In this document: one piece after another, positions 3,614 to 12,269 of the stretch
How positions within the stretch are numbered: position 1 is the stretch's first letter
Layout of the letters: each line of letters starts with the position of its first letter
Source: a delta proteobacterium ML8_F1
GTDB taxonomy: Bacteria > Bacillota > Clostridia > Peptostreptococcales > Acidaminobacteraceae
NCBI GenBank assembly: GCA_002029975.1
Contig: LQBE01000014.1
Location: 125,550-184,455 of the forward strand
Length of the DNA stretch: 58,906 nt
Direction of reading: 5' to 3'
Notes under the pieces: generated by a model
Database searches by the model: none
The model's input: the letters and a program-made list of their open reading frames with translations, nothing else
What the model was told of the DNA's origin: nothing
Program-made: the position numbers and the translations under genes

Positions 3614-4195
3614 ATGGAAAATGCAAGTATTTTCGTAATCATTGTCAGTGCGATACTCGTCAATAACTTTGTCCTGTCCAGATTCCTGGGTATCTGTCCT
3701 TTCCTGGGCGTTTCAAAGCAGGTCGAAACAGCTTTCGGCATGGGCATGGCGGTGACCTTCGTCATGACCCTTGCGGGGATTATCACCTATGTGGTCCAGT
3801 ACTTCATCCTGGTGCCCCTGGGTCTGGAATTTCTGAAAATCGTGGCCTTTATCCTGGTCATTGCATCCCTGGTTCAATTTGTTGAGATTGTGTTGCAGAA
3901 AACCTCTCCCACCCTTTATCAGGCCCTGGGGGTTTTCCTTCCACTGATTACCACCAACTGTGCGGTGCTGGGACTGGCACTGCTCAACATTCAATACGAG
4001 TTCAATCTACTGCAGACCATCGCCCATTCGGCTTCGGCCGCCATCGGCTTCTCTCTGGCCATCGTGCTCTTTGCCGGCATCAGAGAGAGACTGGAAATCG
4101 CGGATGTCCCCAAACCCTTCAAGGGCTTTCCCATCGCCTTGATCACTGCTAGCTTGATGTCCATTGCTTTCTTGGGATTCACAGGACTGGTTTAA
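3614..4195 (+). CDS. rnfA: Rnf complex subunit A (integral membrane)
   Basis: RnfA (NqrE homologue) is the 193-residue membrane partner of RnfE. It has the family signatures [19 protein letters not shown] near the N-terminus and [13 protein letters not shown] near residue 115, each supplying a conserved Cys within a membrane helix, the proposed ligands of the cluster shared with RnfE. An AGGAGGT site at 3602-3608 precedes the ATG. The gene lies between rnfE and rnfB with short spacers. Confidence 0.96.
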
Positions 4196-4209
4196 AGGAG
4201 TGAAAACAA

Positions 4210-5037
4210 ATGGAAATGAATAGTATCATTTTAGCGACGGTCAGCCTGGGTGGCATGGGACTCATCTTCGGTGCCGGACTGGCCTTCGCCTCACAAAAAT
4301 TTGCCGTAGAAGTGGATCCCCGGGCGGTCAGTGTCCGTGAAGCGTTGCCGGGGGCGAACTGCGGAGCCTGTGGTTTTCCTGGATGTGACGCCTTTGCCAA
4401 TGCTGTCGTCAAGGGGTCGGCGCCTATCAATGGCTGCCCCGTGGGTGGGGCGGAAACCCTTGGCAAGCTCAGTGTCATCATGGGGGTGGAAGCCGCCTCC
4501 GGTGAAAAACAGGTTGCACGGGTACTGTGTCAGGGCGGAGAGCACTGCCTTGACCGATTTGAATATGACGGCATCGAAACCTGCAAGGCGGAAAACGCCA
4601 TCGGCGGGGGCGGATCAAAGGCCTGCGTTTTCGGCTGTCTTGGTCACGGGGACTGTGTGGCGGTTTGTAATTTCGACGCCATTCACATCAATGAATACGG
4701 TGTGGCCCAGGTGGAGCCGGACAAATGCACCGCCTGCGGCTTGTGTGTGAGTGCCTGTCCAAAGAATTTGATTGAAATGATTCCCTACAAGCAGCAGGTT
4801 TTTGTGGACTGTATCAATACGGAAATCGGCGGGCACGTCAAGAAAAACTGCTCGAATGCCTGCATTGCCTGCAAGATTTGTGAGAAGAACTGTCCCGAGG
4901 ATGCCATTCACGTGGTCAACAACATTGCACGGATCGATTATGACAAATGTACCAACTGTGCCATATGCTTTGAAAAATGCCCGACAAAGGCGATCAGTTT
5001 CGACCAACAGACCCAGAAACTGGTGGTCAATGAGTGA
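4210..5037 (+). CDS. rnfB: Rnf complex subunit B (ferredoxin-side polyferredoxin)
   Basis: RnfB is the membrane-anchored polyferredoxin taken to be the entry point for electrons from reduced ferredoxin. Residues 6-25 form one membrane helix. A four-Cys iron-sulfur domain follows (GANCGACGFPGCDAFA from about residue 51, then NGCPVGG). The C-terminal half has ferredoxin-like clusters, with motifs CTACGLCVSACP, CIACKICEKNCP and CTNCAICFEKCP plus a further Cys-rich segment around residues 140-160. The length is 275 residues. It is the last gene of the operon and is followed closely by a strong hairpin. Confidence 0.96.
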   Translation: MEMNSIILATVSLGGMGLIFGAGLAFASQKFAVEVDPRAVSVREALPGANCGACGFPGCDAFANAVVKGSAPINGCPVGGAETLGKLSVIMGVEAASGEKQVARVLCQGGEHCLDRFEYDGIETCKAENAIGGGGSKACVFGCLGHGDCVAVCNFDAIHINEYGVAQVEPDKCTACGLCVSACPKNLIEMIPYKQQVFVDCINTEIGGHVKKNCSNACIACKICEKNCPEDAIHVVNNIARIDYDKCTNCAICFEKCPTKAISFDQQTQKLVVNE

Positions 5038-8775: not shown

Positions 8776-8810
8776 TATTATGTTAACTAATAGAGAAGGG
8801 GGCATTGGTG

Positions 8811-9281
8811 ATGGATGAGTTGATGCGAAGGGAAGTTTTGAAAATCATTGAAAGCCAGGGGAAAGCCCGGGAGGCTTTGATTCCTGTTCTCAAGGCAGTG
8901 CAGAGGGTCAACCCGAAACAGTATATTCCCCAGGAGGTCAGTCAGTTGGTGGCTTCAACCATGGGGATATCCGAGAGCGAGGTCTATGAAGTGGTCTCCT
9001 TTTACGCTGAGTTCAGTGAAAAGCCCCGGGCCCGGAATGTGATCAGAATTTGTGACAGTACGGTTTGCCGGGTGACACACCACCGCAAAACTGCCGAGTT
9101 GCTCGAAGCCGCCCTCGGCATCCGGGTGGGGGAGGCCACCGAAGACGGCGTGTTCTGTCTGGAGTATTCCCCCTGTTTCGGGGCCTGTGATGTGGCCCCG
9201 GCGATTCGAATCAATGACAGGGTCTATGGCAATCTCGACGGAGAAAAGCTTGAAGAGATTCTTCAAAGCTACAGGAGATGA
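8811..9281 (+). CDS. hydC: NADH-linked [FeFe] hydrogenase, NuoE-like [2Fe-2S] subunit
   Basis: This is the thioredoxin-fold [2Fe-2S] subunit, related to NuoE and HndA/HydC, that connects the flavoprotein with the rest of the hydrogenase. The four ligands are in place: CDSTVC (C-x4-C) near residue 80 and CFGAC (C-x3-C) near residue 124. The N-terminal helical part with PQEVSQLVASTMGI is also typical. I use the ATG at 8811, eight bases after GAAGGGGG; TTG and GTG codons just upstream also lie in frame. The length is 156 residues. It is the first gene of hydCBA, four bases before hydB. Confidence 0.92.
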   Translation: MDELMRREVLKIIESQGKAREALIPVLKAVQRVNPKQYIPQEVSQLVASTMGISESEVYEVVSFYAEFSEKPRARNVIRICDSTVCRVTHHRKTAELLEAALGIRVGEATEDGVFCLEYSPCFGACDVAPAIRINDRVYGNLDGEKLEEILQSYRR

Positions 9282-9285
9282 TTTC

Positions 9286-10536
9286 ATGAAAAAAGAAATG
9301 GCATTGATTACGGAGAATTTTCTCCGCTATGGGCCTCCGGACACGGCAGGCTATCTGGAAATCGGAGGATTCACCGGGCTTGAAAAAGCCCTGGCCGGTT
9401 CGCCGGAGGAGCTTGTCAGGACCATCGAGGCTTCGGGACTCAGGGGAAGAGGGGGGGCGGCCTATCCCACTGGGAAAAAAATGCGCCAGTCCGCCGCCTA
9501 TGAAGGGGACACCAAATACCTTATCTGCAATGCCGATGAAGGGGAGCCTGGCACCTTCAAGGACCGGGAGCTTCTGGAAAAGGACCCCCTGGGTGTCCTG
9601 GAAGGGATGGTGATCGCAGCCCACGGCGTGGGGGCGACTCAGGGCATTCTCTATCTGAGGGAGGAATATTCCCATCTTCTGGGGTTGCTGGAAGATTCCC
9701 TCGCAGCCATGAGACAAGACGGCTATCTGGGCCGGGGGATTCTTGGGGGGCCTCTTGATTTTGACATCACAGTCTTTGTGGGTGCCGGAGCCTACATCTG
9801 CGGCGAAGGCACCTCACTCATCGAATCCATTGAAGGCAAGCCCGGGCGCCCCAGAAACAAACCGCCCTACACCAAGGCCCAGGGTTTATTCATGAAACCC
9901 ACCCTGGTATCCAATGTGGAAACCTTCAGTGGCATTACTGCCATTGTCAGGCATGGGGCGGAGGTTTTTACAGGCTATGGAACACCCATGAGCCCGGGGA
10001 CTAAATTGATCAGTCTGTGCGGCAATGTCAACCGTCCCGGAACCTATGAGGTGCCCTTTGGCACAACCCTGGAGGAAATCGTCATGGGAATCGGAGAGGG
10101 GGTTGCCGGGGGCAGGGCGCTGAAATTTGTCCAGATCGGGGGCATATCCGGGCCCCTGTTGCCAAAGGAATTTCTGAAAATGCCCTTGTCCTATGAGGCC
10201 TTTGAAAAAGAGGGCCTGTCCATCGGTTCCGGCGCTGTCCTGGTGGTGGATGAGACCACGGACATCCTCGATTTTCTCGATGCCGTGGCGGCGTTTTTCA
10301 AGCATGAGAGTTGTGGCAAATGCACTCCCTGCCGGGAAGGAAACCGCCAGATAATGAACATACTCAAAAGGATGCGGGAAGGAGTGGCCCTCCCCTCAGA
10401 TCCTGAGAATATCCAGCGGATTGCCAATACGATGAAATACGCTTCCTTTTGCGGACTTGGGAAAACAGCGCCCACAGCCCTGCTGAGTGCCGTCAGATAC
10501 TGCCCTGAGGAAATCTTCACGAGGAGGGGACTATAA
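9286..10536 (+). CDS. hydB: NADH-linked [FeFe] hydrogenase, NuoF-like flavoprotein subunit
   Basis: The 416-residue protein has the NuoF core: the NADH-binding segment GLRGRGGAAYPTGKK near residue 50, the FMN-site segment NADEGEPGTFKDRELLEKDP near residue 80, GAGAYICGEGTSLIESIEG near residue 170, and a [4Fe-4S] site formed by Cys343, Cys346, Cys349 and Cys389. It lacks both the N-terminal thioredoxin-like [2Fe-2S] domain and the C-terminal ferredoxin domain of the long HydB/HndC proteins. The ATG at 9286 follows GGAGATG at the end of hydC. The stop overlaps the hydA start by one base (TAATG), which implies coupled translation. Confidence 0.93.
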   Translation: MKKEMALITENFLRYGPPDTAGYLEIGGFTGLEKALAGSPEELVRTIEASGLRGRGGAAYPTGKKMRQSAAYEGDTKYLICNADEGEPGTFKDRELLEKDPLGVLEGMVIAAHGVGATQGILYLREEYSHLLGLLEDSLAAMRQDGYLGRGILGGPLDFDITVFVGAGAYICGEGTSLIESIEGKPGRPRNKPPYTKAQGLFMKPTLVSNVETFSGITAIVRHGAEVFTGYGTPMSPGTKLISLCGNVNRPGTYEVPFGTTLEEIVMGIGEGVAGGRALKFVQIGGISGPLLPKEFLKMPLSYEAFEKEGLSIGSGAVLVVDETTDILDFLDAVAAFFKHESCGKCTPCREGNRQIMNILKRMREGVALPSDPENIQRIANTMKYASFCGLGKTAPTALLSAVRYCPEEIFTRRGL

Positions 10537-12269
10537 TGGATTTTGTGAATCTCACCATTGACCAGGTTGCCGTCACGGTGCCCCGGGGAACCACCATCCT
10601 GGAGGCGGCCCGAAAAATCAATATCAATATTCCCACCCTGTGTCACCACCCGGACCAGAAGGTTAAGGCCAATTGCAGAATCTGTCTTGTAGAGACCGGT
10701 GAAGACCAGCTGGATACGGCCTGTTCCACCCAGGTCAGGGAAGGCATGAAGGTGCTGACCACCTCGAAGCTGGTCAGGGAGACACAAAAGGGGGTTCTGG
10801 AACTGATTCTGGCCAACCATGACCAGGATTGTCTCAAATGCATCCGCAACGGCAATTGTGAACTCCAGGATTTGTGTGAACGGTTTGCCATCTCCCGGGG
10901 GGATCTGGGCCTCATCGCACCCGGAGACGTCACGGTGGATGCCAGGCCCAAAGACCTGTTCAATCCCGCCATTGTCAGGGATTATGGCAAGTGCATCAAA
11001 TGCAATCGCTGTGTCGAGGTCTGTCGGGAGGTTCAGGATGCGGGGATTCTTTCAGCCGCCTTCAGAAGCACGGACTACACGATACAGCCGGCTTACGGCA
11101 GGACTCTGGACGCCACCCTGTGCACCTATTGCGGCCAGTGCATCGCGGTCTGTCCCGTTGGGGCAATTTATGAAAAAACGGAAACAGACCGGGTATGGGA
11201 GGCCCTTGACCGGGAGGATCTCCACGTCATTGTCCAGGTGGCCCCGGCGGTCAGGGTGACCCTCGGGGAGGAATTCGGCTGCGAGCCGGGGACACCGGTG
11301 ACCCAAAAGATTGTGGCCGCCTTGAGAAGAATCGGTTTTGACCGGGTCTATGACACGGATTTCACAGCAGACCTGACCATCATAGAGGAAGGGTATGAGC
11401 TGATTGACCGGATCAGGCATCAGGGAACCCTGCCCATGATCACTTCCTGCTCACCGGGCTGGATCAACTATATGGAGGGATTCTTTCCGGAAATGATTCC
11501 CCATGTCTCCACCTGCAAATCCCCTCAACAGATGTTTGGTGCCCTGTCAAAGACCTACTACGCCGACAAGACACAAATCCCGCCGTCAAAAATCTTCACG
11601 GTTTCCATTATGCCCTGTACGGCGAAAAAATTCGAGGCAAAGCGCGAAGAGATGGTTCAAAAGGGGATTCCTGATGTTGATGCCGTGCTGACGACCCGGG
11701 AACTGGCGAAGCTCATCAAGGTGGCGGGCATTGATTTCAACCGCCTTCAGGGGGAGGAGTTTGATGCTCCCTTTGGCATGACCACCGGAGCCGGCGTCAT
11801 TTTCGGGGCAAGTGGCGGGGTCATGGAGGCGGCACTCAGGACGGTTTATGAGGTGCTGACCAAAGAGGAAATGCCTCAAATCAATCTGTATGCCCTCAGG
11901 GGGACGGAGGGCATCAAGGTGTCAAGTCTTCAAATCGGGGACCTTGAGGTGAAGGTGGCCGTGGCCAATGGTCTGAAGAACGCAAGGCAGCTGGTGGAGG
12001 AGGTGAAGGCGGGGGATTCGCCCTATCACTTCATCGAAATCATGGGCTGTCCCGGAGGCTGTCTGGGGGGCGGCGGTCAGCCCATAAACACGGACCTGAA
12101 AATCAAGGAGGCGCGCATGAAGGGGATTTATCAGGTGGACCAGACCATGGCCATCAGAAAGTCCCATGAAAACCCCCGAATCAAAGAACTCTATGAGGAA
12201 TTTCTCAAGGAGCCCAATTCACCGGTTGCCCACAGGATTCTCCATACCCATTACCAGTCAAGAGAGTGA
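10536..12269 (+). CDS. hydA: [FeFe] hydrogenase catalytic subunit
   Basis: This is the H2-producing or H2-oxidising subunit, 577 residues. In order it shows a [2Fe-2S] domain (Cys36, Cys47, Cys50 and a Cys in DTACSTQ), a His-Cys cluster (HDQDCLKCIRNGNC), two [4Fe-4S] motifs (CIKCNRCVEVC and CTYCGQCIAVCP), then the H-cluster domain with motifs L1 TSCSPGW (Cys305-Ser306), L2 MPCTAKKFEA (Cys361) and L3 GCPGGCLGGGGQP (Cys505, Cys509), and a C-terminal small-subunit-like tail. L1 normally reads TSCCPxW, so Ser306 is notable. With hydC and hydB it should form an NAD(H)-linked trimer in the cytoplasm, working alongside Rnf to balance NADH, ferredoxin and H2. Confidence 0.95.
   Translation: MDFVNLTIDQVAVTVPRGTTILEAARKININIPTLCHHPDQKVKANCRICLVETGEDQLDTACSTQVREGMKVLTTSKLVRETQKGVLELILANHDQDCLKCIRNGNCELQDLCERFAISRGDLGLIAPGDVTVDARPKDLFNPAIVRDYGKCIKCNRCVEVCREVQDAGILSAAFRSTDYTIQPAYGRTLDATLCTYCGQCIAVCPVGAIYEKTETDRVWEALDREDLHVIVQVAPAVRVTLGEEFGCEPGTPVTQKIVAALRRIGFDRVYDTDFTADLTIIEEGYELIDRIRHQGTLPMITSCSPGWINYMEGFFPEMIPHVSTCKSPQQMFGALSKTYYADKTQIPPSKIFTVSIMPCTAKKFEAKREEMVQKGIPDVDAVLTTRELAKLIKVAGIDFNRLQGEEFDAPFGMTTGAGVIFGASGGVMEAALRTVYEVLTKEEMPQINLYALRGTEGIKVSSLQIGDLEVKVAVANGLKNARQLVEEVKAGDSPYHFIEIMGCPGGCLGGGGQPINTDLKIKEARMKGIYQVDQTMAIRKSHENPRIKELYEEFLKEPNSPVAHRILHTHYQSRE

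Follow-up and report, generated by a model that had tools for sequence, protein, structure and literature searches.

A serine at a cubane-ligand position in an NADH-linked group A [FeFe]-hydrogenase, and related genomes with no HydE, HydF or HydG over cut-off

The stretch of DNA analysed here (58,906 nucleotides, referred to as the window throughout) carries an operon that we read as encoding an NADH-linked HydABC [FeFe]-hydrogenase, whose catalytic subunit HydA belongs to a large subgroup with a TSCSP motif and in which Ser306 most likely supplies the H-cluster cubane with its fourth ligand; we put the probability of this reading at about 0.62. The three genes form a hydCBA operon:

8805-9281, + strand: HydC, NuoE-like thioredoxin-fold [2Fe-2S] subunit, 158 amino acids (Pfam PF01257, E 4.7e-43)
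9286-10536, + strand: HydB, NuoF-like FMN/NADH subunit (Pfam PF01512, PF10589 and a weak SLBB match)
10536-12269, + strand: HydA, group A [FeFe]-hydrogenase catalytic subunit, 577 amino acids (NF040763, TIGR02512, AlphaFold2 model)

HydA scores 530.2 bits against the curated group A model TIGR02512 (cut-off 405.95), which places it in group A, and 871 bits against NF040763, the model for the NADH-dependent group A6 (cut-off 765), a label it shares with a TSCCP paralogue in the same genome (878 bits). The HydB frame is listed from 9187, and we infer its start at 9286. In the Pfam search this subunit returned Complex1_51K, NADH_4Fe-4S and SLBB matches only and no Fer4 match; it has no C-terminal ferredoxin-like part, as expected of a non-bifurcating, NADH-dependent HydABC enzyme. 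Upstream of the operon (window 3614-5037) lie genes for an Rnf-Nqr family membrane protein and an RnfB-like Fe-S protein (Pfam PF02508 and PF04060).

The genome carrying the window (G000) has a second hydrogenase operon on contig C5 (locus L294, 6333-10781), whose HydA reads TSCCPAW at L1. Its HydB (589 amino acids, from the translation of L294) ends in two CxxCxxCxxxC motifs that make up a ferredoxin-like part, and the layout is that of bifurcating enzymes. A third HydA homologue lies on the - strand of L294 (4098-5354; also in L003), matching TIGR04105 at 146.5 bits, below the cut-off of that model; its L1 reads STYCP, with Tyr at the proton-transfer position and Cys retained at the ligand position, and a HATPase_c-domain gene is close by (L294 2545-3093, - strand).

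The residues of HydA on which the argument turns, each with its counterpart in the Clostridium pasteurianum enzyme CpI, are as follows:

11442-11462, + strand: L1 motif TSCSPGW (T303-W309; codons ACT TCC TGC TCA CCG GGC TGG)
11448-11450, + strand: Cys305, CpI Cys299, the proton-transfer cysteine (by alignment; Cys in 190/190 Ser-type and 83/84 Cys-type sequences)
11451-11453, + strand: Ser306 (TCA), CpI Cys300, proposed serinate ligand of the H-cluster cubane (alignment, conservation, tree)
11514-11516, + strand: Cys327, CpI Ala321 (Cys in 176/190 Ser-type and 64/84 Cys-type sequences)
11616-11618, + strand: Cys361, CpI Cys355, cubane ligand in L2 (alignment, conservation)
12048-12050, + strand: Cys505, CpI Cys499, cubane ligand in L3 (alignment, conservation)
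12060-12062, + strand: Cys509, CpI Cys503, cubane/diiron bridging ligand in L3 (alignment, conservation)

The first-pass annotation had placed a serine where the cubane ligand is expected and Cys305 where the proton-transfer cysteine is expected, and the alignment bears this out: a phmmer comparison with CpI gives a constant offset of 6 from L1 to L3, so that Ser306, Cys361, Cys505 and Cys509 correspond to CpI 300, 355, 499 and 503, and Cys305 aligns with CpI 299 and not with the ligand position. The tested proton-path and diiron-pocket residues (CpI C299, E279, E282, S319, K358, M353 and M497) are all present, as C305, E285, E288, S325, K364, M359 and M503. It had also pointed out that TCA differs from a Cys codon by more than one base; the codon is indeed two bases away from TGT and TGC, but nothing follows from that distance, as every one of the six Ser codons occurs at this position among relatives (AGC 77, AGT 46, TCA 30, TCT 24, TCG 8 and TCC 5 among 190 sequences). 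Nor is Ser306 a sequencing error, because the serine recurs in the nearest HydA relatives, L034 (genome G310, 85% identity) and L035 (genome G313, 75% identity), as well as in 190 of 274 distinct H-domains. HydA thus has three of the four cubane cysteines by which group A is recognised (CpI 300, 355, 499 and 503), the exception being Ser306. We treat this departure as a difference of a subgroup within the family rather than as grounds for exclusion, because a search of 61 genomes from across the phylum with the group A model itself returned 42 Ser and 36 Cys sequences among 78 that were distinct (84 matches, with two fragments from G023 left out).

To see how the serine is distributed, we aligned H-domains and tabulated the residue before Pro in L1. 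From 313 loci we obtained 298 reading frames, which together with the window gave 281 distinct H-domains, and dropping the seven shorter than 330 residues left 274, a set that is biased towards the TSCSP subgroup (many sequences came from searches seeded with it) and should not be read as a population frequency. Ser occupies the position in 190 of them and Cys in the other 84, with no other residue seen. On a tree of 153 rows, built by a quick method with the trait residue masked and with 56 of its 150 inner branches left open, Ser and Cys require 7 changes, as against 44.6 when the labels are shuffled; at least two of these changes are forced by starred branches, and the sister rows L169/L167 and L134/L123 differ in state. 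The suggestion that TSCSPGW would turn out to be a subgroup trait therefore holds. In a further set of 61 related genomes there were 104 matches over the group A cut-off, of which 100 were taken, along with L307 just below it; at least 32 of the 51 HydA-bearing genomes in this set, G000 included, contain HydA of the Ser type as well as of the Cys type.

More novel than Ser306 is the pattern of the maturases HydE, HydF and HydG. G000 yields no profile match to HydG at E 0.001, its best HydE match scores 26.5 bits (cut-off 254.6) and its best HydF match 100.8 bits (cut-off 325.55), so that the expectation of finding all three in a genome with a group A enzyme does not hold here. G000 is 98.84% complete in 58 contigs, and for this genome taken alone an assembly gap is possible. 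None of the three is over cut-off in the nearest relatives G310 and G313 either, and the pattern extends further. Group A HydA is over cut-off in 51 of the 61 related genomes: 33 of these carry all three maturases, three carry two (G328, G336, G355), one carries one (G366) and 14 carry none (G000, G310, G313, G315, G325, G333, G335, G337, G340, G342, G345, G356, G361, G367). Completeness reaches 90% or more in ten of the 14, and G356 is a single contig, 99% complete; above all because of G356, an assembly gap across all 14 genomes is unlikely. The converse also occurs, with all three maturases in G329 and G357, and two in G332, in genomes with no HydA over cut-off. A separate check of 12 genomes found HydG over cut-off in eight and HydE in eight, and neither in G000, G310, G313 or G309, where the HydE-profile match (193 bits) is below cut-off; and in the phylum sample, searched for HydG only, 14 of 39 HydA-bearing genomes had no HydG over cut-off. 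Maturase status shows no visible link to the serine, as maturase-free genomes hold Ser only, Cys only or both, and both HydA types are found with and without maturases.

There are several scenarios that might explain this pattern. The genes may have been missed by the profiles or may lie within stretches that read N, which some loci contain; maturation may follow a divergent or unknown route; or HydA may work without a diiron site. We looked for an alternative maturase among gene families that lie near HydA in at least three maturase-free genomes, and on our reading the best 25 offered no candidate: they were Hyd subunits or frames lying antisense to these, together with an ABC-transporter-like gene and genes reflecting genus-level synteny. 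In a literature search confined mostly to journals outside subscription, the nearest parallel was a study of eight Clostridium acetogens, in the accessible part of which typical HydE and HydG occur together in only three; in the other five HydG went undetected by known motifs, and atypical HydG candidates were proposed (PMC9431212).

Because no maturases were found in G000, the completeness of the H-cluster in the window HydA is uncertain. Imagine that HydA in this genome had no diiron site and acted as an electron-transfer protein, a scenario compatible with any cubane ligand. The absence of HydG, HydE and HydF over cut-off from G000, G310 and G313 alike is what such a protein would predict, yet the diiron-pocket and proton-path residues that we tested are kept, and the H-domain is conserved to a degree that is difficult to tell from that of maturase-bearing relatives. 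We compared chosen H-domain pairs by dN/dS, restricting ourselves to pairs with unsaturated silent sites (3 of 10 maturase-free and 10 of 12 maturase-bearing). The maturase-free values are 0.079 for the window against G310, 0.019 for the C5 paralogue against its counterpart in G310 and 0.026 for G333 against G342; the ten maturase-bearing pairs range from 0.010 to 0.101, all these values being rough given a dS of about 0.7 to 2.1. By these estimates the comparable maturase-free HydA genes show purifying selection, and we consider a HydA without a diiron site unlikely.

Intactness was scored at 13 catalytic positions per sequence. Of the 24 sequences from maturase-free related genomes, 23 are intact and the remaining one, L234, is a fragment with P237S at its edge; in the other related genomes all 77 of 77 are intact. 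In the phylum sample (81 sequences, leaving out the C5 paralogue of G000), 54 of 55 are intact where HydG is present and 23 of 26 where it is not; the three that deviate in the latter group are L201 and L202, which score under the group A cut-off, and L191, which carries M359T. In G356, the single-contig genome, the neighbours of a TSCSP HydA are nifV, nifH, a P-II gene and nifD (L311, 965-7600), with nifV, nifH and nifD over curated cut-offs and no HydB or HydC among the open reading frames listed for this 13-kb stretch; an H2-handling enzyme would make sense in such a neighbourhood. For the maturase-free HydA in general we also entertained an identity with HylA, a HydA homologue of C. acidurici that according to the accessible text of PMC6085437 is without conserved L1-L3, and dropped it, as L1-L3 are kept here.

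Which residue, then, would hold the fourth iron of the cubane? The first-pass annotation had left three options: Ser306 acts as ligand, Cys305 shifts to take that role, or catalysis is altered. Across the 274 H-domains, Cys361, Cys505 and Cys509 are invariant and position 306 is only ever Ser or Cys; position 327, by comparison, is C, A, V, S, T or I. We searched all columns for a replacement cysteine, that is, one present in almost all Ser-type sequences and seldom in Cys-type ones, and found none, the Cys frequencies in Ser-type and Cys-type sequences being 93 and 76% at position 327, 35 and 6% at 313, 29 and 0% at 504, and 25 and 4% at 368. Because position 306 admits only these two residues and no replacement cysteine is obligatory, ligation by Ser306 is favoured and fits best of the three options. 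This conservation pattern could also be reconciled with a serine that merely hydrogen-bonds, with water as the fourth ligand.

In the AlphaFold2 model of HydA (mean pLDDT 88.7, 83 in the block 301-310, no cofactors), a strand at 301-304 is followed by a helix at 307-316, and Ser306 sits between them in the CpI register. The best structural match of the model is CbA5H (8zqd, Z 57.2 over 423 residues); the CpI entries give Z 54.9-55.9 with an rmsd of 2.0-2.4 over about 565 residues, and HydA1 of Acetobacterium woodii (7q4w) Z 48.2 with an rmsd of 2.1 over 566 residues at 51% identity. The position directly before a helix would suit a non-ligand serine, one that hydrogen-bonds or caps the helix as Cys361, Cys505 and Cys509 hold the cubane and water or hydroxide occupies the fourth iron, and three cysteines are able to hold a [4Fe-4S] cluster. 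If capping were the role of this residue, however, we would have expected some Thr, Asn, Asp or Gly at position 306, and these occur in none of the 274 sequences, which leaves this scenario decidedly unlikely.

A second possibility is that Cys305 moves by one place to bind the cubane, leaving proton transfer to Ser306. Such an exchange would likewise keep both residues invariant, but the predicted model, built though it is without cofactors, retains the CpI register around L1, and serine is a poor proton relay at the C299 site of CpI, as C299 variants illustrate. With Cys305 as the ligand, moreover, position 306 would be freer to vary than it is; we do not favour the shift and regard the exchange as improbable. 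That another cysteine has taken over, with Cys327 as the best candidate (suggested by S[ST]CKSPQ in A. woodii and the window, as against Ala in CpI and T. kivui, and by Cys327 being more frequent in the Ser type), we reject for Cys327 and consider the least probable alternative altogether, as 13 Ser-type sequences have Ala and one has Thr at 327, most Cys-type sequences have Cys327 as well, and the remaining enriched Cys columns are rarer still (at most 35%). Altered catalysis, finally, finds no support when understood as a loss: HydA1 of A. woodii has the same motif, and the accessible text of PMC7311640 quotes the hydrogenase complex of that organism as active, at 760 U/mg with methyl viologen.

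A column-by-column comparison shows two residues that track Ser306, Gly308 (189 of 190 Ser-type sequences, the exception being L143 with Ala308, versus 22 of 84 Cys-type) and Phe499 (189 of 190 versus 26 of 84). We considered a functional coupling of these residues to the serine and set it aside, since the tree provides only two supported independent contrasts, too few for a statistical test. A further cysteine at position 504, directly before the CpI-499 ligand (MCCPGGC), occurs in 55 of the 190 Ser-type sequences and in none of the 84 Cys-type ones (for example L223, L251, L254, L257 and L271); the window HydA has Gly at this position.

If Ser306 is indeed the ligand, it would stand in for CpI Cys300, its side-chain oxygen binding an iron of the [4Fe-4S] part of the H-cluster, with Cys361, Cys505 and Cys509 as the remaining cubane ligands and Cys305 still the proton-transfer cysteine. 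Electrons would pass from NADH to FMN on HydB, through the Fe-S chain to the Ser306 cubane and on to the diiron site, and the Fe-O bond would make the cubane harder to reduce. What the data show directly is sequence, alignment, conservation and predicted fold; the bond, the path and the shift in reducibility we infer, the last from how clusters generally respond to Cys-to-Ser ligand swaps, which leave them harder to reduce.

A very common hydrogenase type would then have an H-cluster unlike the textbook one, and the presence of both types in so many of the related genomes would offer a natural ligand swap that can be compared directly. If the absence of maturases is real, in turn, it can no longer be taken as settled that HydE, HydF and HydG are indispensable to all [FeFe]-hydrogenases, and genome surveys that infer hydrogen production from hydA should look for the maturases as well. 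Taken jointly, about half of the group A hydrogenases of the clostridial phylum would have a Ser-bound cubane, and a sizeable minority of genomes, G000 included, would make functional [FeFe]-hydrogenases with no HydE, HydF or HydG, by an unknown route. We advance this combined picture only tentatively and doubt that it holds in full; its maturase-free part rests on intact, selected HydA genes in the genomes where all three maturases are missing, among them the single-contig G356, whose TSCSP HydA has nif neighbours.

The Ser-for-Cys variant is common, inherited and already in print, and the window gene is a further member of it. CpI resembles the window HydA in fold, in three of the four cubane cysteines and in the residues at C299, E279, E282 and S319, and differs in reading TSCCPGW, with Cys300 where the window has Ser306. 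L1 of T. kivui HydA1 is TSCCPSW. The P-cluster of nitrogenase is a larger cluster in an unrelated protein. Described in the accessible part of PMC4284687 as the only well-characterised Ser-coordinated cluster, it can serve as an analogy only. The same text, from 2014, reports Cys300Ser (CpI numbering) as common in HydA fragments from Great Salt Lake and Guerrero Negro and proposes Ser coordination, perhaps stabilising the oxidised state in the presence of O2; those data are PCR fragments read in terms of O2 stability, and as far as the accessible text goes they come with neither a count across genomes nor a test for a replacement ligand (PMC4284687). TSCSPGW was noted in 2013 in two HydA sequences from ACD20, a subsurface Melainabacteria genome (PMC3787301, accessible part), and in 2024 a Ser/Cys split was described for Hydrogenedentota, with Ser commonly found in four of the five subtypes (PMC11406978, accessible part).

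Two complexes come closest to that of the window. The HydABC complex of A. woodii (HydA1; PDB 7q4v, 7q4w, 8a5e) shares TSCSPGW (C300-S301 there) and an equal L1-L2 spacing, and it reads SSCKSPQ, as compared with STCKSPQ in the window and SSAKSPQ in CpI. However, this complex is titled electron-bifurcating, whereas the window HydB is without the extra C-terminal Fe-S domain, and its HydA1 belongs to a different part of the tree; residues of the beta subunit are said, in the accessible part of PMC7311640, to separate bifurcating from non-bifurcating kinds. Hyd1ABC of Syntrophomonas wolfei, which is NADH-dependent and non-bifurcating, resembles the window in its HydA-HydB-HydC set and short HydB (PMC6288185, accessible part). 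The S. wolfei genome encodes HydE and HydG along with a third maturation gene, none of which was found in G000, and Hyd1ABC was active after co-expression with maturases (PMC5626996, accessible part). Like the window HydA, the Syntrophomonas loci L102, L106 and L108 read TSCSPGW at L1.
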